Origin: Diadema setosum
Taxonomy: Eukaryota; Echinodermata; Echinoidea; Diadematoida; Diadematidae
Direction of reading: 5' to 3'
Length of the DNA: 64,000 nt
Assembly (NCBI RefSeq): GCF_964275005.1
Contig: NC_092689.1
Location: forward strand, 2,759,001-2,823,000
In this document: positions 424 to 36,422 of the stretch, in pieces
Layout of the letters: each line of letters opens with the position of its first letter
Numbering within the stretch: the stretch's first letter is position 1
Notes under the pieces: model-generated
What the model was told of the DNA's origin: nothing
Databases searched by the model: none
The model's input: the letters and a program-made list of their open reading frames with translations, nothing else
Made by a program: the position numbers and the translations under genes

Positions 424-905
424 ACATATTGAAGCTAAATAAGGACAAAACTGAAAGCATTGTTCTGTCGTCTGGTAGACTGCATTATACGCCCGACTGG
501 AGATATGAGCCTTCAGATTGGGAACCCACTGTAAATGTATTACATATTGTAGTAAACCTATGTGATCATTCTGATCAGATACTCAATGTAAATGTCAGAT
601 CTTGTCAGTAGAGTGTACCACATACACTGTATGTAGCAACCTCCACCTGAGAAATATTAGAAAGTATCTCACTGCGGATGCATAAAACCATCCAGTGTGC
701 TTTCTTGTTCAGAGCAGGCTCGATTATGGAAATTCTCTGCTGGCAAATACGAATGTCAACAACGTGGAAAGACTCCAAAAAGTCCAAATCGAGTGGCTCG
801 TCTGGTGCTTGGAGTAAAGAGTACCTTACCTACAGGTGTAGTAATCCTTTACTGAAGCATTTACACTGGCTGCCCATCACAAAGCGTGAAATTTTGAAAT
901 TCTGA
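424..905 (+). mobile_element. LINE (CR1/L2-like) reverse transcriptase remnant
   Basis: The conceptual translation near 429 reads LKLNKDKTESIVLSSGR, which matches the stretch after the catalytic region of CR1/L2/Jockey-type reverse transcriptases (LNxDKTE). Further on, near 712, another frame gives SRLDYGNSLLA followed by a NVNNVERLQKVQ stretch, the well-known 'SRLDYCNSLL..L....RLQ.VQN.AAR' signature, and near 800 comes an ARLVLGV-like piece. An HWLPI word near 866-881 fits the end of the domain. The pieces fall in different frames with in-frame stops, and the segment between them is shorter than in intact elements. This is therefore a decayed, 5'-truncated copy with no coding capacity. Confidence 0.75.
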
Positions 906-999
906 ATGCAGACCAACTGACCAGAATATGACGTGTTTACACAAAATTGATACATTGTATGTAACAGGGGCAGATCCAGAATGTTTTCTCAGGTACAAG

Positions 1000-1420
1000 A
1001 AGGAAAGAAGGCAAGCATTTTTTATGAGATCTTGTCATCTCAACCTCAGAAGGCAATCAGGTGAGAACCAAGATCTTGTCTTTTCAACTTCTTGGATTTG
1101 AGATGGTCAGAAGGCAAGTTGTGAAGTCTCATCTTCTAGACATCTTGGTTCCAAGAAGGCGAAAAGGCGAGAAGACGACATCTCACATCTTGTCCCCAGA
1201 TCTTGTCTGATCAACTTTTCAGGCCCAAGGGTGAGATGTATAAAGACCTTGTCATCAAAAAAGGCAAAAAGGCATGGCCTTTTCGACTTCTTGGCTCCAA
1301 ATAGGTGGGAAGATGAAATCTCATATAGTGCCTTCCTGTATCCTTCCTGTATCCAAGAGATCACAAAGACATATTGTATACCATATCTCAAATCTCGTCC
1401 TCTCACCTTTTTGGATCCGA
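1000..1420. repeat. Degenerate tandem repeat of AAGGCAAGA / GATCTTGTC words
   Basis: Short words such as AGAAGGCAAG, GATCTTGTC and CTTCTTGG recur about a dozen times in both orientations, spaced by 20-60 bases. Open frames on both strands here (for example 1107-1406 minus) are by-products of the repetition. No protein family is recognised. Confidence 0.6.
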
Positions 1421-2619
1421 AAAGATAATGAAGGCAGGGGACAACACTTAAAAGCTTCTACATAATGCAAAGTGTTTCAAAGGAAATATTGCAAGGTCCA
1501 TTGGCAGGTACTCAATTCAACCTCAAACAATTCCAAGAAGGCATTATAGTTTACAACATTGGTTCAGCTGCAGACAGAATGACTCTTGAAATCGTCATGG
1601 TGACAGGCAGTCACCTTCATTAATCATTCACCAAAACAGCCCACTAATGACCTCATTAACACCTGCACTACTCTGACCCTTGCATAACTTTACCAAGGCC
1701 TTCTGAATAGTCACTAACAACTTGTTTTCAAGTCTCAACTAAAGGCACCAAAAACTGACTACTGTTGATTGAAATAAAAAGGAGAGAGGAATAAAAATGA
1801 ACAAAAGAAAATAGCACTTTTGACCAAAATGCAATCTTTAATTAAATGCAGATCTACATAAACGTAAAGACTGTTTTGAATGAGAGTAATGGAGCATTTA
1901 AAGCTATACTTTTCCATCATATGTAAACATACAGGATCTGTGAAATTTGAAATTTAACTGATCTTTTACAAGACATGCTATAAGAAAACTTGTTGAAAAC
2001 TTTTAATAATATAAAACCAGATATCACAAAGAAAATCACTGAAGTGACTTTAATTAACATGATAAGCTACAAACATGTAGGGGTTTGACTTGTAAGGTAT
2101 TTCAAAATCATCTATGAAAAAGCTTCAGCAATTTCCCTCTGTGTATAAATCCCTATCAAACCAAAGTTTCTCATACAGCACTGAAAGTATGGCACTGAAA
2201 AGCTGCAATCTGATATGTTTGTGATCAGTACAATGCTCACTTCAAGACTAAAAACTAGATGGAATAAAGATGATGTTATAGTATGCACGTGGTACCATTT
2301 ATAACTCACTGTCAGTTCCTTCTGATGATCTCTGTTGCTTTGTGTTATAGGCTGTGGCATTCGACTGTTTATACTCGGTGTAACCTGTGAGCTGACATGA
2401 ACATGGCAGGAATAAATGAATCATGCTCAGCCACATGCCTACAATTCACACTATCTAGAGAGTTCTTGCTTGACTATACAATGTAGATGATCTATACATA
2501 GGCAAATGACGTTTCGGTGATGATGGCCACTCTTTGCTATCTATAGGTTCTGTACAGTACATTGTATGTGCTCTTACACTGAGACACTGGCTATACATCA
2601 AGTGTAGCAAGGCTTTGAG
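1421..2619. other. No feature recognised
   Basis: AT-rich single-copy-looking sequence. Open frames are short, without splice-framed coding character or a recognisable motif. Confidence 0.5.
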
Positions 2620-2826
2620 TACTGTAAAACATGATACAGTATATTCGCGGCATGAATTTATCGCGAATTGGAGCCAACGGCCTTTTATGCGGCATGAAAT
2701 TTTCGCGAACTACCACTGGCATTCAATGCATATAGTGTAAACAAGAACTTTCACATGCACTTTAATTTCGCGAATCTTGGCGTTCGCAAAATTAAAATGC
2801 ACACGAACATTCCTCGTTTTACAGTA
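2620..2826. mobile_element. MITE, TACTGTAAAA-end family, copy 1
   Basis: The ends are TACTGTAAAAC at 2620 and its complement, GTTTTACAGTA, at 2816-2826. Inside are TTCGCGAA, ATCGCGAAT and TTTCGCGAA words and ATGCATGAAATT-like stretches shared with copies at 18462-18675, 21565-21650 and 57285-57497. The TA at each end may be the target duplication of a Tc1/mariner-type element. There is no transposase, so it is a non-autonomous element. Confidence 0.6.
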
Positions 2827-4499
2827 TGATTTGACTATGAACATGTGATATCCCCATACAAAAACATGCTCTCACAATCTAATAGCATAAAAGCTATTGT
2901 TCAAACTGGGCCCTGATTAGACCAATACCCCATTCACACATGGTATTCAGAGTACTCCGGGAGCACTCCTAAAGCAATCCAGACTCTGTATTAATGGTCA
3001 CCAATGTTCTGGAAGTACTCTTAAAATGTTGTATAAACGGTACAGTTGGGCTTTGTGCATAACATTTACAGTGTAGACAACATCGAGAATTAGTTATGCA
3101 TATCAGCAGACATGAATTTTGCTTATATTTTTGATACTACAAGATGTACACATTTGTACAATTCCTTGTCAGAGTGATAAACCATTCAAACATAATTTAC
3201 AACTGAGGTGATATTACTACTTCATCTCTTTAAATAACTCTCTTTACTAGAGTGCAAAGAAATAAATCAACAACAACAGTAGCTCATTCCCAAGGTTCTC
3301 CAGCTAAAACTTCACAAATAGACAGATGACATGAATACCACTAAGAGTTATTAATCACTCAGGCTTGAAATTTTACACCAACTGCTGGCATAAACACCTT
3401 TCTACAGAAGTCCTGTCATACTCAACCGAGCCCAAATTTTTACTGAATGACTTCTTCGATATTCCAGTTTTTCTGCAAAGCAGCAAAATACGAGGAAGGA
3501 ATTCCCTTTAATCCAGAGTCACAACGATTCCTCAACAATGCACCGTGGTAGTGCATACAGTGCCCTTCCTACTCTACAGTGTATGTAACAAAATGATTCA
3601 TCTGCTCCCAGTGAGCTGATGCACACTTTGAGCTATTACCCATCACAACTACACTCTGTCCATCTGGTTTGGATGACAGAGTAGCAACATGATTCAAAGG
3701 CTGCTAGTTTGCAGCAGTCACAGCACCTCAATATCAACAACAGTCACTTTGGGATGAAAGATCTGTGTACCCTATACAATGTACATCAGAAGTGACAAGA
3801 TTAGTGCTGTTTACACAGTCTGTGAACAAAATATCAGGATGTAGAACAATAAAAATCTAAGTACAGTACCTAGATTGCCCCTGTTCAGACAAACATAACT
3901 AGCCCCCTATTAACTGCTGATCGTGATAATTTATGGACCAAACTGCGCATGTGTGAAATCTGCGGAAAGGATGACCTTTGCCTTTGTATTCATGCACTGC
4001 TGTTGTGATGTGTGTTTTGACTGATAAGGCAGAAAATCTCCTGATTATTTGCCCTAGTAGCTTTCATACACTGAATCAATGCTTTTAAATGAGAGACACG
4101 AGCATGTGACTTTGTTCGGTATGTGACTGGTGCTAAGACTATGCAGCAAGACAGGAGTCTGAAGAGTCCAGAAATGACTACTATGTAAGGATTATGTTTA
4201 CATCTCCAGTAGATAATCTCACACCCAATGAACCGCATGTTCATTACATTTCTTGACATTCAATGTACTCATGAATCAATCTAATCTCAAACTCATGATG
4301 TACCAGGTAACTGTGGTGCTATGTATACATGTATACATACTTTTACTGCATGTACGTACATGTACCTCTCTTTTTCTTGGATTTTGTACACACACACAAA
4401 AAAAAAGTACATCTTCCCGTCCCTCTCAATAAAATGTACAGGTACAGGGCATATCGAGATTAAGACCACAAACTGAGTGATGTTCTCAAAATGAATAAT
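2827..4499. other. No gene recognised
   Basis: AT-rich intergenic sequence. Open frames at 3990-4259 and 4293-4571 (minus) show no family motif. A TACATGTA-rich run lies at about 4318-4365 and a short CA/A run near 4390. Confidence 0.5.
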
Positions 4500-4990
4500 C
4501 CCAATATGTAGCGATGTCAGCGGGGTCACATTTAACACATTTCCTATTCTGCCGACTAGTAGACCAGCCAAACCTCAAAAAAGGCTCTAGATAAGGATTC
4601 GACGGCATTTTTTGTTAATGCTCTGTTCTCATGATGAAAGTCTTGCAAAAATACTAAGGAATAGCGTACGGCCGGATGTCAAGCGTATTTTTGCCAAAAT
4701 GTCCTTTTTAGCTCAAAATTCAGAAGCATGTCGAAAATCACGATTTTTATTTTTTGCTTGCATTCAATTCATATTTGAAAGATCTTGAGTTTCAATTGTC
4801 CCTTTTCATGAAATTGCAATTTAAATGAGTTTCCTTAGCATTTTAAAAGGTCATTTTGTACAGCCATATATGGGGCTCTCAAATGTTTGGGTGTTGTTTT
4901 CTCGAAATAATATTCACAGATTAATTAACGTTCTGCAAAGTTTGTTTTTCCAAGCTAATTAGATGATCTTCCAAAAGTAATTTAATGTTT
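4500..4990 (-). repeat. Left member of a diverged inverted repeat pair
   Basis: The segment around CGTACGGCCGGATGTCAAGCG (4667-4686), GAAAGTCTTGCAAAAATACT (4636) and AATCACGATTTTTATTTTTT (4737) reappears in opposite orientation at about 12912-13125 with roughly a quarter of positions changed. The weaker match continues for a few hundred bases inward, towards 5000. Confidence 0.65.
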
Positions 4991-21650: not shown

Positions 21651-22168
21651 CTGCTAAACATGTTACAAGTAATAGAGAAGCACTCTGAGAGCACAGACCT
21701 CTGTAAAGCAACTCATTCCCACTACTGATCTTGTTCCCAAAATGAGAACAGTGATTTCCATCCATACATAAAATCATGCATGCTGAAAGTAGCCCGATTT
21801 CCCAATGTAGAAGCCTTTTGTTACATTGTATGTCATCAACTTTCAGCTGCGCGGCAAGCCTCGCCCCAGCAGAAACTAGAGCATGCACTGTAGGCACGTA
21901 TGCAAACCTCAAAAATGCACTGCTTGAACTCTGGTACGAGTTCACTGACCCAGTCTACCAGCCAAAATATCATAAATCCTTCATAAAATCCAGATTTTTC
22001 ACAGATCACTACCTAAATTTAATCATCTGTTCCTTGTGTCATTCTTAACTTTTCCTGTAAGTTTCATCCAAATCCGTTCACAACTTTTTGAGTTATTTTG
22101 CACAGGGATAAACAAACAAACCAACGGTAATGAAAACATAACCTCCTCCCTTGTTGGCGGGGGTAATT
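21640..22168. repeat. Interspersed repeat family 'CTCTGAGAGC...GGCGGAGGTAA', copy 1
   Basis: It runs from GAAGCACTCTGAGAGC through CCGATTTCCCAATGTAGAAG and AAATCCGTTCACAACTTTT to CATAACCTCCTCCCTTG. The same order of words is found at 33215-34170. Similar 'AACATAACCTCCTCCCTTGG' endings are common in marine invertebrate repeats. No coding; the open frame at 21776-22048 is incidental. Confidence 0.65.
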
Positions 22169-23538
22169 AAATCTTTTTACAATGACTGACATGAACAGAT
22201 GATGTCCCTGGCAGAATCTTGGGTTTATTTTTTTGTGTGTGAATATATCAATATCCAGTACAGTAGACGAGTCTAAGCTGAAGAAAGAAATGTTAATGTA
22301 GCTGAAAAATTATAATGAAATAGACTATCCTTGCACATATCTGGTCAAATAAAAGTGATGTTGAATCATGACATGAATCAACAGAGAAGTAGGGCCTAAC
22401 AGCCGTTAGGCATTAGATCTAGTACAGTAGAACACTCTCCGCAATATGCATACTATAAAACGTTAGACAGAGAAAGATCAGTCTGTCCGGAGGAGCCTTT
22501 TATTTTTTTGACGTTATCGCTCTCCTCCGGAGAAATGTGTATAGGAGGGGATCCATGAAGCCAGACGCAGTCTCCGCGGAACATATCCCCGACGACCAGA
22601 TACAGACCAATCTTTCGGTCAATTATGCATGCTTGCATTTTTTAGGCCTATCCATAGGCCCAGCCTATTTTAGTATTACCTGTTCTCATGGTTCTACATG
22701 TCAATGATTTATTTCTATTGTTAATGATAAATGTATAGTTTCTAGGGCGTACCGGTAATAAGCAGATAGTATACATTATTGATCACTGCTTCAAAATATC
22801 GAGAATAACTTCACGTACGAAGGGAGCGACTACCTTCTGATATTGAAGGGCAATGAAGCGTACAACTTCAAGGACAATTGAATTGCAACCTTGTTCAAGA
22901 ACAACTGACACGGCACAGTAAACTTACAACTGCACGGGCATCAATCTGTCCGACGTTTCAACGACAACGTTCCGCTTGTGCGAACTTCAACACTTGCCGG
23001 GGAGCAACTCATTCACGGTCCACGGACGTCTCTGATCCGATGCAGTGATTTCTTGATATTCTTGCCACTGGCGTATTTACGAGAGGGTTATTGCTTTCTC
23101 TGTCACGTTATCCTTGTAATGTCAGATTTCATCATAAATTCAGGGGATGTCGGGCACACTGACAATCAGTAAAATTGCACGAAATTTGCGTCCCACTTCG
23201 AATCCGAAACAAAAACTGCGGGGATGCTCTCCGCATCCACCATCCAACACAATTCCGGGATTTGAGGATTGTGCGATGCGAATACAGAGTACATTTGTAC
23301 TAGCAGGTATGTAGCTTTTGCTTGAAAGCGCAGCGCTCGCTCACACACGTACACACAGCTGCTAGTTTAGTACGTTTCAGGAGCTGCATCTCATCGCTCC
23401 TCCTGCTTGACTTGCCACAGAGATGGCGAAGACACACAGTTATGATTGCTGTGTAAGTAGTGCAGTGTTAGCTCTGTGTAGTCGGAGTGTACCGCACGCC
23501 TAAGTTACTGAAAACAAGCAACTTTCAAGGAAGTAGCG
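22169..23538. other. Intergenic with a hairpin and a moderately CpG-rich part
   Basis: TCCGGAGGAG (22487) and CTCCTCCGGA (22532) form a 10-base-arm hairpin. From about 22800 to 23420 CpG is raised compared with neighbours. A candidate first exon is listed separately at 23423. Confidence 0.4.
23423..23452 (+). CDS. Candidate short first coding exon (MAKTHSYDCC)
   Basis: An ATG in good context (CAGAGATGGCG) opens MAKTHSYDCC and is followed at once by GTAAGTAG, a strong donor site. The preceding 600 bases are relatively CpG-rich, as for a promoter. A start of this type, basic residues then a CC pair, is seen in some small zinc-binding domain proteins such as THAP-type proteins, but ten residues cannot establish that. 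No downstream exon is recognisable; a 3.5 kb palindromic element begins 87 bases later. Unspliced, the frame stops after 26 codons. Speculative. Confidence 0.15.
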
Positions 23539-23659
23539 GTAGTCCAAGAGCGTTAGGTCAAAAAAGGACATTTTTGGTAACAAGCTGATTTTTTCAGGAT
23601 AAGTCCAGAAAAATGTCTAGAATAACATACTAAAAGTCCTCATAAATCCTCTTTGAGCG

Positions 23660-24200
23660 TTTTCCGCAATCCAAGATGGCGTCCAAAATGGCCGCCATTT
23701 TAGGAAATTCGTATAACTTTTCAACCAGAGAACCAAAATACAAAATTCAAATGTCTAAATATATGTTTTGAAGCATGGAGAACTCAATGAAACACATATC
23801 AAGAGATGTTGATGCACTTAAGTACCGAAATCCAAGTTGGCGTCCAAAATGGCCGCCGTTTTCTGAAATTCTTATAGCTTTTTAACCCAAATACAAAATG
23901 TAAATGTCTAAATATATGTTTTGAAGGATGATGAACTCAATAAAATACACATTAAGAGATGTTGACGCAGGCAACTACAGAAATCCAAGATGTCGTCCAA
24001 AATGGCCGCCATTTCCTGAATGTTTTATACCCTTTCAACTGGGAAACTCAATACACAATTTAAGAGTCTTATATGTTTCGTAACATGAAGAACTCAATAC
24101 AATACATATTAAGAGATTTGGACGCACGCATGTACCTATCAAACCGCTCGAGCTCTTCCTAAAATGCAAAATGGCGTGCAAAATGGCTGGCAGTCACAAT
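23660..24200 (+). repeat. Left-arm array, about four units with ATGGCGTCCAAAATGG core
   Basis: CCAAGATGGCGTCCAAAATG starts at about 23671, with variants near 23831, 23984 and 24165, so units are 150-180 bases. Each also carries AAATGTCTAAATATATGTTT and AAGAGATGTTGATGCA. The fourth unit is the most diverged. Confidence 0.8.
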
Positions 24201-24719
24201 TTTATCTCATAATCATGTAAATAAATGTCAGTATAGTTTATAAAAAAAAAAACTTGTTATTTAAAGAATGATTCTTCTGTGCAAGGTATACGAATAAAAA
24301 CATTTGGGTGTTAAACTCAAGGAGTGTGTCCTTGTTACGAGAGAAACATCTCACCATCAGATTTGTTGCTAAACGGAGAACCTACTAGAAGGCAATATCT
24401 TTTTACCACATGGTCTTTTCGTCACCTCAAGCACATGAGATGAAAACTTAGTGCTAGCCCCTTTTTATTACCAACGCATTTGATGTCTACCGTGAGGTGA
24501 GTTCCAGTTGAAAATGTCAGTTATCACTTGAGAAGTAAAAACAATTCTTTTTGATATCTGTGCTACACATAAATGTTCAAAACTAGTATCTACATGTGCT
24601 ACAAAATAATGTGTAATTCATCACATGACAGTGAATTTCTTCGGCGCAGTATATTGCTCCACCTAAACATAGTGTCTAAATTATCTTATTCATTTCATGG
24701 AGATTATGTAAAATTATAT

Positions 24720-26020
24720 AATAGATAGAAATCAGAGAAAATGACACTCATAATAATGGGAGGGATACTCCTCTCCCACACAAGGGATCTTTTTTCTTTT
24801 TACTCGAAAGTGAAACATATAGTGCAAACGTGTGGTAAGATATTGAATTATTTCCATCAAAGAGTAGGAAATATATAAATTAGTATTCAGGGAAATGGGC
24901 AATATATTGGAGGATGTGGAAAGGGGATCCCCTTCCCCTCCCCCAACATTAGGGAGATATCAGACTTGATATCCAGACATCTGATGCACCCTATTGGTGA
25001 AATATTAGATTTTTGTTTCCATTAAAAAAGGAACAAAAAGATATATAATCATGGAATTGCGCGATCATAGGGTTGCCCGCTCCCACACGAGGGAAAATTT
25101 CGTATTTTCAGACTTGAAATTCATAGATCTGTTGCACCCATTTGGTGAAAAATCCGATATTTGTTTTCTATTTCAAAACGTTAGGAAAAATACATATTCA
25201 GGAAAGTGTCGGGGAGGGGGAAGTGTGAGAGGAGAATACTCCTTCCCATACCATGGAGATTTTGGCATTTTCCAATTTGAAATTCAGAGATTTAGCGCAC
25301 TCTTTGGATGAAATATTTGAGATTTGCTTTTGTCCTAAAAGTAAAAAAATATATATTTATGGAAATATGCGGGAGGAGGTGTATGAGGTGATGCACCCTC
25401 CCACGAAATGGAGATTTTTTTTTTTTTTTTCAGGTTACGGGTTTTACGGTGCGCACTGTTGATGAAATACTAGATTTTTGTTTCTATTAAAAAGTGTAAG
25501 TCGAAAAACAGACTAGTATATTCAAGGCAATGAGCTAGTAGAGGATGTGGGGGGATCACTTTCGACTGGAGGGCGTTTTGAATTTCTATGGTCGTCACTA
25601 AACGGCCTAGTGGTGCACCCTTGGTGTAATATTGATTGTCCATTCTCAAAGAGTAGATAATTCACAGTCTCGATATCCCTATCCCCTCCAACACGAGGGA
25701 GCTTTTACACTTGAATTGAAATGGAAATAGTAATATCATTTACACACAATTGATGGAATATTTGGGAATTGTTAATCAAAGGAGTGTTTAATTTATATTG
25801 GGGGAAGTGAGTGGTGGAAGAGTTAGGAAGGGCAAATTACCCTCCAATATGAGGAAACTAACTTTTGCATTTTGCAAGTGAAAGATCTAGTGCACTCTTT
25901 TTGATGACATATTCGGAAATTTGTTAATCTCAAAAGTGTACAAAGTCTATGGAAAGGGACCGAGCGAGGGACGTATAGCATTTTTATGATTGCAATAAAT
26001 TTCAATGACAAAGTGCAAAT
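24720..26020 (+). repeat. Central array, about 155-base units in direct orientation
   Basis: Words such as CACCCTATTGGTGAAATATT, AGATTTTTGTTTC and GGAGGATGTG recur near 24990, 25136, 25299, 25457, 25620, 25757 and 25890. Each unit includes a run of C/T such as CCTTCCCCTCCCCC. Divergence between units is high, about a third of positions. Confidence 0.65.
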
Positions 26021-26219
26021 ACTTCAGGTTGAATATTTGAAAAATAATGATTGTACAGGCCACCCCCTTCCCCAATGGGGGGGGGGGGATGCATTCAACC
26101 CAACCTATACCCGTGTTGTGCACACTTGAGGGAAAGATTCCACTGGACCTTCTGAGTTGTTGAATCTTGAACATTATATTGAATTTCTTTGTCTGTTGAA
26201 ACAAGCTAAAAACAGCAAT

Positions 26220-26960
26220 TTTTGATAAACAAACGGCGGCCATTTTGGGCAACATTTGGTTTTCGCGAAGAATTCATGAAGTTTTATTTGTACTTACGTG
26301 CTTCATGATCTCTGAATAAGTATTTCGTTGAGTTCCTTACGTCTCAAAATATATATTTATACATTTAAGTGCGTATCACGGTTACCTAGTTTTAGGGTTA
26401 TGAGAAAAACAAGAAATGGCAGCCTTTTTGGACACCATTTTGGATTTCTGAAAGCGGTTAAGTAGCTTTAAGTGCTTTATTTGTGTTTCAAAATCTCTGA
26501 ATAAGTATTATGTATTTGGTTCCTTGTGAGTCAAAACGTATACTTCGACATTCCAAGTGTGTGCAGTTAAAATCTACTTGCAAAATTATGAGAAAAATAA
26601 TCAGGAAATGGCGGCCATTTTGGACGCCATCTTGGATTACGGTACTTGCGTGCTTCAAAATCTCTTAATATGTATTTTATTGAGTTCTTCATTCTTCAAA
26701 ACATTTATTTAGACATTTAAATTTTGTATTTAGGTTACCAGGCTGAAAAGTTATAAGAATTTCAGAAAATGGCGGCCATTTTGGACGCCATCTTGGATTT
26801 CGGTACTTGCGTGCATCAACATCTCTTGATAAGTGTTTCATTGAGTTCGTCATGCTTTAAAACATATATTTAGACATTTAAAATTTGTATTTGGGTTCTC
26901 TGGTTGAAAAGTAACAAGAATTTCTTGAAATGGCCATCTTGGATTGCGGAAAACGCTCAA
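26220..26960 (-). repeat. Right-arm array, about five units inverted relative to the left arm
   Basis: GGCGGCCATTTTGG and GCCATCTTGGATT words occur near 26233, 26415, 26605, 26767 and 26930. The outer two units are the closest matches to the outer left-arm units. Confidence 0.8.
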
Positions 26961-27200
26961 AGAGGATTTATGAGGACTTTTAGTATGTTATTCTAGACAT
27001 TTTTCTGGACCTATCCTGAAAAAATCAGCTTGTTACCAAAAATGTCCAGGTTAAAACTAATGCTCTTGGACTACGGGAGAACTGTCTCCTGCAGGGAGGG
27101 AGAGTATTATAGACTTTCGTGGATTTCACCAGGGAGGTGAGACATTTTTGTCACACTTTGGGGATTGTCAATTTTCCGAATATTCCACACAAGTGTGCAT

Positions 27201-27231
27201 CAGATCGCTCTTCTTTAAGAAGAGCGATCTG
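27201..27231. repeat. 31-base perfect hairpin
   Basis: CAGATCGCTCTTCTT and AAGAAGAGCGATCTG are 15-base perfect arms around a single T. Confidence 0.75.
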
Positions 27232-29383
27232 ACGCTCTATTTCAATTCTAACAACGCAAAAGTTCCGTCGTGTGGGAGGGGGCTACCCTTCACCTCCCCC
27301 CCCCCCAGTCAATCTGTGAATATTTTTTTCTTCCTTTTTTGATGGGAAAAAATGCAAAAATTTCACCGAAAATGTGCACCGTTGTACCTAAAATTAATTA
27401 TATCTTTTGATAAAACGGGGTCCTATCGCTGAATTTCAGGTTTGAAACACACTCCCAGTCCCCCTCCCCCGACTCGGTCGCTCCGCTCCCTCGCACATAT
27501 ACAGTATACAATATTCCAACTCCAAGTTTTGCCCCCCCCCCCCCCCCCCCATCGTGAAAACGGATCAAAGCCTCCGCTGGGGGGGGGGGGGCAATGAAAT
27601 ATTCAAAAGAATCGCTGGTGCACACTTCATAGAATATTATTTGGAAAATTTTCAATTAAAAACTAAGACGATACGTTTGGGTATTAATTTTGTTTTAATT
27701 TGCAAGAAACAGTCCCATACAAACTAAATTCTTGTTGTGTGAGTTTCTTATTAGATATCTAAGAGCATCGACGGAGCAGGGAGAGGGTGTAGTATATAGT
27801 ATAATATACACGTTTAAGATACAAATATAACTTGGAGGTGAATACAATTTACTATATTTCAGTATTCAAAAGTTTTTAAAAAATGGGGTGTCCATCCCTT
27901 TTGCCATCCCTCCTCTTGCCGTTATGCACCCTTATGCAATATGCATTTCTGTTTCCACAAGCTAATGTAAAATTAGGGTTCTATAGTGATTCAAACCACA
28001 ATTTCTTTGAGGGAAAATTATCCGTCGCCACAACATTATTAGTTGTAACAAAGGATGCGTGCATTAACTCCACTGAAAACTGCAATCCTTCCAGAATAGC
28101 TAAGTCCTGGTCTCGTACATAATTTATCCCTCACGCTTCTACCGTACTATATATAGAGATAGATACTAAAATGACACTGTGCCTTCTACAGCCTGCAAAG
28201 GGATTGTATGACGATGACGATGATGATGAACTGCATTTATATAGCGCAATTATTTTTTTCTTTTGTCTGTAAAGAACATTCAAAGGCGCCTGGCTCAAAA
28301 AAAAAAAACAACAAACAAACAAACAAACAAACAAATTAATGCAACACATTATTCACAGAGCTGCCGGAAAAGAAAGAACTCCGTTAGGACAACAAACTCT
28401 GCAACTAATAATTCATACCAGCAGCAATGCTTCATCAAACCAGGACACAAACTAGACAATGGCTGAAAACGTACAGAGGACGTTGACATTATAATGGTAT
28501 CAACGTCCTTGCAGTTTTTGCCCATTAGTGTGTATACATGCACTCCATACCAGTGGAGGAATAAAGCAGCTTGTTTTTTTATTATGCATCGAGTGCAGAA
28601 CCACGCCCAGAATAGATGCTATTCACATTCAGTTACTAGTAACATTGAAATACACAAGCATTTCCCAAATCAACCCAGAGACAGACAACAATTAAAGAGC
28701 TTTAGTTTGTCAGTTTGCTATTTATTTATTGTTTCTTCTTTTTCATTCTTTTTTCTTCGGTGCCTCAGAGGATTTGTCAAAACAATACATTAGCAATCCC
28801 ACTGATGATCCAGACTGCGAGTCGTACAGTATGTCTGTCCCCCCCCCCCCCAAAAAAAAAAAAAATACAATCGGATTTCCGCATTGATAACATTCAATAT
28901 GATTAAACCGTTTAAATGCTACTTCAGGGTCTTCAAATACAAAATCTTAGCTCTATTTTGCAGAAAACCCCATTCAATTTGGTCTAGCGATCACAGAGAA
29001 ATGTGGATTGTTGTAAAGCCTGTCATGAGTCTGATTCTTCCAAGTTCAGCACTTGGATGCTCTATTGTGTGAATACAATACTTAGAACCTGGAGGGAAGA
29101 GATTCCTGACATGCTCTATACAAAATTCCTCATTTCTCTTTGACCACTGAAGCATGTCAAATGGGGTCTTCTGTAAGATGTGGGCAATGAGTTATATTTT
29201 CATCAATATACCCTGAAATTGTATGTGGATTGATTCACTACTTTTAAAGTTATCGCTGCGGAGGGTACCGTTATATATATATATACTTTTTTTTATTATT
29301 ATTTTTTTTTTTGGACATACGGTATAGAGATCTGTGTACACAGCATATGCAGGCTCTTTCTTTGCTGGCAGACCATGTGCCAC
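27232..29383. other. No gene; homopolymer tracts
   Basis: C and G runs at about 27297-27306, 27532-27550 and 27580-27591, an A-run with (CAAA)n at about 28298-28334, and a C-run followed by an A-run at about 28839-28865. AACGTACAGAGGACGTTGAC and TATCAACGTCCTTG near 28467-28507 form a short imperfect hairpin. Open frames are not supported. Confidence 0.45.
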
Positions 29384-33214: not shown

Positions 33215-34170
33215 GAACTAGAAAAGCACTCTGAGAGCGCAGACATCCGCCAAGCAGCTACTTTCCACCGATGATCTTGCTCTTCCCAAAGAGATTTTTC
33301 TCCTCTCCACCACTTAGGAAAAGTTCTTTGGGCTCTTCCATAGAGATCAGTGATTCCCACCTGTAGGTATTCATGCTGAAAAATCGCCCGATTTCCCAAT
33401 ATAGAAGCCTTTATTATGTCATAAACCCTCGGTTGCGCAGCGCGCCTCGCCTTAGCAAGTTGAAAGTTGAAAGTTGTAAGTTTATTTTACTCAACAACCC
33501 ATACTCTGGGTATCGAGTCCAACGTAAAACCACATATATCACATCATTAGTCAAATAATACAGAATTGCAAATAACTTCAACAAGTGTACAAAACTACTA
33601 TAACAAAGTAAATAAGAATGAAATACGATTGATAAAAAGAAAAACACAAAAATGTACAGAAATATACAATATATACAAAATATTATGGTGAAAAATAAAA
33701 GGAGAGAGAAGAGAAATGGAGGTGAAGAGGGAAGAGTGAGAAGGACACAAAACTGGTGACAAAGTACCTATACAAATTAACAAAAGAAATTGAGTGGCAT
33801 ATAGTTCAGAAAAAACATTAAAAAGAAACAGAAATAAAAAAAACCGCAGACATACGGAAATATATTCATATGATAAGTGAACAAAGAATGAAGGAAATAT
33901 GGAGACGAAAACGAGAAGAGAAACTAGAGCATGCTTGAACTCCCAAGTTCATTGACCCTACCTGTCAAAATATCAAAAATATCCTTCATAAATTTAAAAA
34001 AAAAATATTAGATCACTATCAAAATTTAATCATTTGTTACTTGTGTCATTCCCAACCTTTCCTGTAAGTTTCATCCAAATCCGTTAACTATTTTTTGAGT
34101 TATTTTGCACACGGACAAACAAACAAACCAACGGTAACGAAAACATAACCTCCTCCCTTGGCGGAGGTAA
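33215..34170. repeat. Interspersed repeat family 'CTCTGAGAGC...GGCGGAGGTAA', copy 2, with insertion
   Basis: It matches copy 1 (21640-22168) from AAAAGCACTCTGAGAGCG to ACCTCCTCCCTTGGCGGAGG, but about 465 bases of unrelated sequence lie between CGCCTTAGCA and GAAACTAGAGCATGC. The other copy is continuous there. Confidence 0.7.
33458..33925 (-). mobile_element. Inserted retroelement 3' end, antisense
   Basis: On the minus strand it ends TGAGTAAAATAAACTTACAA then CTTTCAACTTTCAAC: a polyadenylation-like word followed by a short tandem tail, as in many LINE and SINE 3' ends. No protein-coding part is recognised. Its insertion point is defined by the uninterrupted copy of the host repeat at 21.6 kb. 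Confidence 0.5.
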
Positions 34171-34206: not shown

Positions 34207-34546
34207 CACTCGGTATTTCCAAGGACAAAATGCAATATGACAAAATAAGAAGCACGTCTATGAAAGTTTCATAAATATCAGACAAAAACTAAGGATCTGA
34301 AAAGATTTCAAATTTCACATATTTAATTTGGCAGGGACGTTGATATCAGTCAAATCCACATTAAGCAAATTAGATGAGATGATAACAGTGCCGTACCGTG
34401 GGTCAAGACATTGGGGGGAGGGGGAGGGGGGAGGGGGGGGGGGCACCTCGTGGAAAAGTAATTTTGTCAGTCTGCAAACTTAATGGGGACTACAATGTAC
34501 ATACGGAATGTGATACATTCCACAGCGCAGTCATTGAGCAACAGTA

Positions 34547-35029
34547 GGCGTTTTCACATCAGCCCGAAGTTTCGAAATAGCGCGCTATTTTCTGACTTGG
34601 GAAATTTTCCCGATAGCGAAATAGCGCGCTATTTGATACTGTGAACACAAATTAGCGCGCTAATTGTATCGCTCTGATCGAGAAAATTTCTCGACTCCAA
34701 CTCGGGAAATTTCTGAAATAGCGGGATAGTAGCGCGCTATTTGATTACGACTCGAGAAATTAGCGCGATGAATCCCATCATGCCTAGCGTGTGTGACCCG
34801 ATCGATCGAGACACACTGCACACAAATCATGAGGAATTTTGAGAGGGCACACACATTACTGATGCTGCTTGCACATACTCAGCTGTCGAATTAGCTATTT
34901 TAAAATTTCTAACTATTCGGGCTACCCCTTCTTCGGGCTAGTGTGAATAAGAAATGAAATAGCGCTCTAATTCGCAATCGCGAAAAATATTTCGAGCTTG
35001 GATTTTTATCGGGCTGATGTGAAAACGCC
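34547..35029. mobile_element. 483-base MITE with TA target duplication
   Basis: GGCGTTTTCACATCAGCCCG and its complement, CGGGCTGATGTGAAAACGCC, are the ends. TA is found just outside both (34545-34546, 35030-35031). The interior is full of AAATAGCGCGCTATTT and TAGCGCGCTA palindromes. A TA site suggests Tc1/mariner-type mobilisation. Confidence 0.85.
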
Positions 35030-35099
35030 TATTGCAAGTTTTCCTTACATGGATTATGGAATGACGGTGTGAAACGACAAATTTCTGGCAGCATCACCA

Positions 35100-35337
35100 G
35101 GTGAATTGCATAACAAGTCAATGCGAGCGAGCTTGAAAATTTTAACATTTTACAGTCCCCAAACTGCTGTTTGTAGCTATATTATTTCGCTTTTGAAATG
35201 AAGGGGGGGGGGGGGGGCATGCACCGGGCGCATCTGCTGGCAATTACTGGCAGCAACATAACGATTAAATGCGAGCGAGCGAAGCGAGCGAGCTTGAAAA
35301 TTTTGACATTTTACAGTCCAAAAACTGCCGTTTGTAG

Positions 35338-35406
<69 letters not shown>

Positions 35407-35820
35407 TTGGAAATTAAGGGGGGGGGGGGGACGCACCGGGCGCAACTGCTGGCAATTACTGGCAGCAACATCAGGAGAATGGCATGACGATTAAATGCGA
35501 GTGAGTGAAGCGAGCGAGCTTGAAAATGTTGACATTTTACAGTCCCAAAACTGCCGTTTGTAGCTACATATTTTTTTGCTTTGGAAATCAAGGGGGGGGG
35601 GGCGCACCGGGCGCAACTGCTGGCAATTACTGGCAGTTACATCAGGAGAATGGCATAACGATTAAAATGATGCGAGCGAGCGGAGCGAGCGAGCTTGAAA
35701 ATTTTGACATTTTACAGTCCAAAAACTGCCGTTTGCAACTACATGTATATTTTTTCGCTTTGGAAATTAAAGGGGGCGCCCGGTGCCCCCCCCCCCCCCC
35801 TGGATCCGCCACTGGTAGTC
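35100..35820 (+). repeat. Four-unit tandem array (about 150-220 bases per unit)
   Basis: Each unit has GCGAGCGAGCTTGAAAAT, GACATTTTACAGTCC, AAAACTGCCGTTTGTAGCTA, a G-run, CACCGGGCGCA and CTGGCAATTACTGGCAG. Units start near 35121, 35275, 35510 and 35680. The second unit has gained (TA)n and poly-T tracts at about 35340-35403. The array ends with TGGATCCGCCACTG. Confidence 0.8.
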
Positions 35821-36422
35821 AAGGGTGTCGGTTTATGTTCATGATTGGGGAAGTATGACCAGCGAGGGGGCGTCGAAGTGACCAAGCGGGGGAAGGATGT
35901 CCAAAATCTGCACTTTAGAGCATCCCCTAATTGTGTTTGTGTGTGTGTGTGTGTGTGTTTTGTGTACATGGAAAAGTTAGGTCAAGTCTTATTATTGGCA
36001 AAGCAAGGCATTTTAATATAGACTTGTATGTATAAAGCAACACTGCAAAATCAATGATCTAGCTTTGATATAACGAATCGTAAGGTTCAAAGGTGTGCAT
36101 TCTACATCACATTGCGCAACATTGCAGCGACTCTTTTTGCCGTTCGGATGTTCTGAGTACACTGCGCACATCCTGCTTATATTCATCATGGACCCTACCA
36201 CAAAATAGGGTCCATGTATTCATAATGCCAACCAGGAGTCACGCTGAATCACAATCTTTTGTCGGCTCTGGGCGTTTTGAACAATGTTTCACACTATATA
36301 CCTCTTTTAATTATGGTTAAAAGAAATCTTAATTTTTTTTTTCCGATGGGATGGGAGAGTATGAAAGGTGATGTCATCTTGTCTGATCTGAATAAGTGAC
36401 TACACTGTATGTTTGATTACTA
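35821..36422. other. No gene; (GT)n tract
   Basis: (GT)n at about 35934-35958. A short hairpin, ATGGACCCTA / TAGGGTCCAT, lies at about 36188-36215. Confidence 0.4.

Follow-up and report, generated by a model that had tools for sequence, protein, structure and literature searches.

The block at positions 23540-27073 of the window (the whole 64,000-nucleotide stretch of Diadema setosum DNA that was analysed) is very probably a foldback-like, non-autonomous DNA transposon of the cut-and-paste kind. Its movement in trans most likely depends on a lineage of 8.1-8.2 kb AcademX-type elements that encode a nuclease. Terminal inverted repeats of ~130 bp and inverted subterminal arrays of ~161-bp units enclose a satellite-like core, at the position where the larger relatives have their gene. 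According to this model, the core would have replaced that gene, and the protein of the large elements would be the transposase that moves the window family. A 32-bp block that is conserved among the arm units is a putative protein-binding site.

The element measures exactly 3534 bp and carries the 3-bp duplication CGG on both sides. The original prediction had delimited a block at 23539-27074; the block is real, and its first and last bases belong instead to the CGG duplication. The parts of the window copy are as follows:

23537-23539, no strand: left target-site duplication CGG, read from the flank letters
23540-23668, plus strand: left terminal inverted repeat, 5'-TAGTCCAAGAGCGTTA, shortened by an 11-bp deletion when compared with the majority of left ends (by-eye reading)
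23669-24212, plus strand: left arm array, 32-bp block starts at about 23669, 23830, 23983 and 24164 (offsets 129, 290, 443 and 624 from 23540)
24213-24909, no strand: left spacer, of which 24334-24704 is a 75% match to sub-arm DNA of the large element L046
24910-26150, plus strand: central direct array with seven in-register anchors, outer limits approximate
26228-26944, minus strand: inverted right arm array, with 161-192 bp between block starts
26945-27073, minus strand: right terminal inverted repeat, ending ...TAATGCTCTTGGACTA-3', placed by the inverted-end match and the termini
27074-27076, no strand: right target-site duplication CGG, read from the flank letters

The inverted ends (23539-23680 versus 26933-27074) match at 94% over 142 nt, which bears out the matching ends of about 130 bases described beforehand. 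The arms had also been called almost identical, and this holds for the outer ~140 bp but not for the full arms, which align at 80% over 694 columns (23539-24212 versus 27074-26398); pieces of the arms that align without gaps over 164-203 nt are 85-90% identical, and no palindrome is observed in the middle ~2.2 kb. As anticipated, the arm arrays are oppositely oriented (TRF periods of 153 and 161; block starts at intervals of 153-181 bp in the left arm and 161-192 bp in the right arm) and the central array has a single orientation, with in-register anchors at 24986, 25134, 25297, 25451, 25615, 25892 and 26120, the first five spaced 148-164 bp; an extra GCACCC at 25393 falls outside the register and is not counted. 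Core units are about 66-73% identical over 38-87 nt in most comparisons (one 44-nt pair reaches 86%), and the proposed difference in within-array divergence between arms and core is therefore real. Also, arm and core of the window copy give no match to each other at E<=1e-5, in agreement with two unrelated arrays. The features of the foldback group, namely long inverted repeats, inner tandem repeats and a variable middle, are thus all present. No Pfam family was found at E<=0.01 in the 20 frames scanned among the 276 window frames of at least 60 aa, and scans of the window gave no tRNA and nothing in Rfam at gathering score. The window element has no evident gene of its own.

This block is a dispersed mobile element. 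When its left 662 bp were used as query against the genome (912.7 Mb in 102 contigs, 19 of which measure 31.8-52.4 Mb, the window being on contig 5), at least 63 matches were obtained (40 of 489 candidates scored). The 16-bp terminus has 179 exact occurrences (91+88) and a 35-mer taken from the terminal repeat has 102 (52+50), each with a reversed control of 0+0; these exact-terminus counts are lower bounds for the copy number. Among the 100 places listed for each of these two strings, neighbours within 15 kb were paired. For the 35-mer, 25 pairs are convergent, none is divergent and 3 lie on the same strand; for the 16-mer, all 24 pairs are convergent. The three same-strand pairs correspond to a tandem array at the locus L054. 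The spacing is 3.2-4.3 kb in 39 of the 49 listed pairs, although the two listings share many elements and the 25 and 24 pairs do not represent 49 separate elements.

Around the matches, 37 stretches were fetched, representing 36 places (L035 and L036 are at one place). An exact 3-bp direct repeat adjoins TAGTCC...GGACTA in 29 of the 30 fetched copies having both ends, the remaining both-ended copy, L021, being without it. Moreover, L010, L011, L013, L014 and L016 align end to end with the window copy at 84-89%, and four pairs of copies are 0.995-0.996 identical, which suggests recent movement of the family. No empty site was found among the fetched loci for 31 copies, and a genome-wide search for that of the window copy, in which 40 of 128 candidates were scored, likewise found none. 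One terminal-repeat pattern had no exact match in viral contigs, one arm pattern had none in prokaryote contigs, and no mention of the terminus sequence was found in a literature search.

These copies support the earlier reading of a foldback-like mobile element, with dispersed same-ended copies and 3-bp duplications. The alternative named beforehand for the case that no other copy shared both ends was a local, non-mobile inverted duplication of satellite DNA. A local process could by itself produce such arms and arrays, but many both-ended copies exist, which are collinear, lie on many contigs within different flanks and nearly all carry the 3-bp duplication. A local origin was rejected on account of these dispersed collinear copies, and its probability is negligible.

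Larger elements with the same ends are found in this genome. Among the 100 places listed, three convergent terminus pairs are 8.1-8.2 kb apart: L046 (8216 bp, duplication TTT), L048 (8081 bp, TAA) and L049 (8179 bp, TTT). L046 and L049 lie about 52 kb apart on G000:C12, have common printed flank letters and are 99% alike; they probably derive from a single insertion with later segmental duplication, and count as one site in the duplication tally. Two more long terminus pairs are observed, of 7.6 kb on contig 5 and 13.8 kb on contig 3, with partial reads L043 and L018. A further element, L047, is a 435-bp miniature that keeps both terminal repeats and is without a duplication, so that three of these four further elements (L046, L048 and L049, not L047) have the 3-bp repeat.

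The 16-bp termini of L046 are identical to those of the window family, and its arms are arrays of ~185-bp units with 73-75% identity to the window arms, one arm having eight block starts and the other four. A long gene, read as long minus-strand frames in L046, lies between the arms of L046, L048 and L049 at the position of the window core. At E<=1e-4 nothing in L046 matches the core itself, which thus occupies the position of the gene. In L048 the gene reads as two open stretches of 409 and 1067 aa that lie in the same frame and are separated by one stop, and in L046 and L049 the frames are interrupted by frame changes; none of the three has a single full-length open frame. Mobilisation of the window family in trans by this lineage is proposed because of the same termini, the 3-bp duplications and the homologous arm arrays. 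That the window-family and L046 arms are only ~75% alike counts against it.

By profile search, the protein encoded by these elements carries a nuclease domain of XPG/FEN1/EXO1 type. When 98 of 119 candidates were scored, a 427-aa piece of it gave at least 80 genomic matches, which range from 100% identity to remote similarity, and open frames of the remote relatives reach 1597 aa. Such remote relatives, seen at L051, L052, L053 and other places and some with frames of 1000-1600 aa, form a diverse lineage in this genome. In an alignment of five relatives, the invariant positions include D-N-x-D and D-Q, and a C-terminal stretch follows the pattern VFD.Y...AD...TD.LV.L...GCD. L048, L051 and L053 continue with a Cys-rich tail. 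The sequence of L052 stops within the start of this tail, and L050 is cut before it. A profile of this alignment retrieved 19 distinct PDB sequences at E<=10, comprising 5 EXO1, 10 FEN1 and 4 5'-3' exonuclease entries, many of them variants of one protein. The best E value is 7.3e-4, 3 of the 19 are below 0.01, and the matches fall at profile positions 1014-1217.

Single-sequence searches of the PDB gave no match at E<=1 for a 445-aa nuclease-like piece and only one chance-level match for a second piece. The Pfam scan of the large elements yielded sub-threshold matches only, with DUF6589 and 5_3_exonuc_N among unrelated ones, and the NCBIfam scan weak unrelated matches only. No catalytic DDE triad was identified in the large-element protein, and related-sequence searches found no relatives of it in viral or prokaryote contigs.

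The ratio dN/dS is 0.116 between L048 and L050 (854 codons) and 0.118 between L046 and L050 (445 codons), with dS about 1.4-1.6 in both cases. Because the ratio to this diverged relative is about 0.12, these codon comparisons show that the protein was long under purifying selection in the past. For the close copies L048 and L046 (dS 0.05) the ratio is 0.40; the present large copies look relaxed, and decay is likely given this value and the lack of an intact frame in L046, L048 and L049. From its position between the shared ends, the protein is taken as a candidate transposase.

The nuclease of Academ elements is of XPG type. Taken together, a nuclease and a 3-bp duplication would fit the AcademX lineage of Academ, an assignment that rests on the nuclease profile and the duplication length, matched to the published description. 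According to PMC10045372, AcademH elements have duplications of 9 or 10 bp and AcademX elements of 3 or 4 bp, and this length seems tied to the encoded helicase or nuclease, respectively. The elements described here resemble AcademX in both respects (PMC10045372): the duplication is exactly 3 bp in 29 of the 30 both-ended copies fetched, at the window copy and in L046, L048 and L049, and a nuclease is encoded in the larger elements, as recognised by sequence profile only, the window copy having no gene. They differ from AcademX in their long foldback-like arms, built of ~161- or ~185-bp unit arrays with a conserved block, and the length of 8.1-8.2 kb compares with a mean of 5565 bp given for curated bivalve Academ elements (PMC10294476). 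No description of a foldback-like Academ element was found in the literature searched, most subscription papers being outside its scope, and this anatomy with motif-bearing arm arrays looks like a novel Academ-type variant.

By anatomy alone, the window element could be a Mutator-type (FB, Tetris) or P-type (Galileo) foldback element. Published foldback elements are mostly assigned to Mutator, with exceptions, and Tetris of Drosophila virilis, FB and Galileo likewise have long inverted repeats, inner tandem units and a non-coding middle lacking a reading frame (PMC4079207). However, Tetris makes duplications of 8-10 bp (PMC4079207) versus 3 bp here, the large same-ended elements encode a nuclease-domain protein, and their frames have no Pfam match to a Mutator or P transposase. 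The gene-bearing relative is thus of another kind than in these foldback elements, and a Mutator or P origin is very improbable. It is also quite unlikely that the window family is moved by another superfamily with 3-bp duplications, such as Harbinger, EnSpm/CACTA or Zator. Harbinger prefers TWA targets, and this preference is not seen here, TAA or TTA representing only 6 of 33 duplications. Duplications of 3 bp are indeed made by Harbinger and Zator (PMC12730594, PMC10045372) and by fungal EnSpm families (PMC12730594), but the termini TAGTCC..GGACTA differ from the CA..TG of most EnSpm relatives (PMC12730594), and the large elements have no Pfam match to transposases of these three groups. 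Finally, oyster Helentrons are also mobile elements with a central satellite-like array (PMC7492417); these are rolling-circle elements (PMC4067079), whereas the window family is bounded by terminal inverted repeats and flanked by target duplications.

Arms and core move as one unit and are of equal age. This was assessed on an alignment of 24 copies, after exclusion of 7 of the 31 (L017, L019, L022, L024, L025, L026 and L038) for large rearrangements; the same set underlies the region identities, the block conservation figures and the pair identities. Averaged over pairs of copies, identity is 0.916 and 0.929 in the two arm arrays, 0.912 in the core and 0.905 in the left spacer, and only the outer ~125 bp are better kept, at 0.964-0.970. 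In a young subfamily of 11 copies, every region is at 0.975-0.985. Also, many of the best core matches sit at terminus-bearing places, by a by-eye comparison among the matches listed. The original prediction of a core older than the arms was rejected on these values, since copies differ from one another to the same degree in arms, spacer and core.

It had also been suggested that gene conversion or hairpin-mediated exchange preserves the likeness of the arms. This was weighed here as a rival in which, in addition, the arm arrays have no role of their own. In its favour, the left and right consensus sequences are nearly identical beyond the first ~40 columns, and one subfamily change in the terminal repeat is found on both arms; because of this column, rare arm-to-arm exchange may occur. 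Four other subfamily columns, however, are changed on one arm only, and a left-specific block of about 11 bases net is present in 29 of 31 left ends and absent from right ends. The exceptions are the window copy and L019, where the block is shortened and a remnant is visible by eye. The 11-bp shortness of the window left end had raised the suspicion of conversion by the right arm; GGTCAAAAAA is kept there and the next 11 bases are missing, and these remnant letters led to the rejection of conversion, the change being a deletion. An automatic diagnostic string calls the left ends of the window copy and L019 as R, owing to a different gap placement. No wholesale arm-to-arm conversion is seen. 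The left-specific block and the one-arm subfamily changes indicate that each arm has mostly evolved on its own. Constraint is the simpler account of why the ends are alike, and the one that explains it best. The 32-bp block is, moreover, conserved above the remaining arm sequence, and conversion as the cause of arm likeness is unlikely, finding no support in the window copy.

The 32-bp block has the sequence ATCCAAGATGGCGTCCAAAATGGCCGCCATTT, which may resemble the YY1 site of animals. Each arm has 4-6 block starts (8 copies examined), the outer ones usually 161 bp apart and the inner ones up to 192 bp. Over the 24 copies, column identity is 0.954 for the block, 0.915 for other arm sequence, 0.911 for the middle and 0.970 for the terminal repeats (one-sided rank test, p 9e-6, columns treated as independent). 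Without the block adjoining each terminus the values are 0.950 versus 0.910 (p 1e-4), and without the two blocks adjoining it 0.942 versus 0.910 (p 0.006). Nine combs shifted by 16-144 bp give 0.900-0.943, that of 80 bp coming near at 0.943. Within units, conservation is 0.88 in the block versus 0.72 in the rest, and in L046 0.903 versus 0.754, both figures being biased by a motif-based choice of units that tolerated up to 12 of 32 mismatches.

A tentative explanation, possible but rather doubtful, is that the arm arrays are putative docking arrays, in which the 32-bp block found in most units would recruit the transposase or a host factor. The arrays would have been present in the gene-bearing ancestor and kept by selection, and gene-less copies with an unrelated satellite core would compete for the enzyme and seed satellites, as at L054.

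At that locus (G000:C12:39073300-39079900), a 3270-bp tandem unit consists of a 3134-bp both-ended copy of the element plus 136 bp of other DNA. The positions equivalent to about 475-877 of the window copy are missing, the array is 99.76% alike at a one-unit shift, and the terminal-repeat 35-mer occurs four times at 3.1-3.3 kb spacing, corresponding to four units. A satellite seeded by a foldback element is known for Tetris (PMC4079207), and the window family seems to have seeded that of L054 in a similar way.

Other repeats are observed near the element. In the right flank of the window copy, core-related units lie at about 27239-27378 (69%, opposite orientation), a dispersed repeat of ~60 bp at 27152-27211, and a 33-bp palindrome with an unpaired central base at 27200-27232. 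A second array-bearing repeat with units of 171-175 bp (34386-36287) matches a 3.9 kb insert in the copy L022, at positions ~760-4670 of its element. This insert is probably another transposon family because, by eye, an apparent 8-bp direct repeat, CTTATGAG, flanks it. Also, 21921-22166 and 33932-34170 of the window form a direct repeat (81% over 253 columns), with a further match nearby between 21776-21871 and 33369-33457.

The foldback anatomy, usually tied to Mutator or P elements, would here occur in an Academ-type lineage that encodes a nuclease. Since this genome also contains gene-bearing relatives, and the block offers a concrete site, the role of arm arrays in foldback elements becomes testable. 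In the same way, the near-homogeneous array of L054, whose unit contains an element, makes the conversion of a foldback element into a satellite testable.
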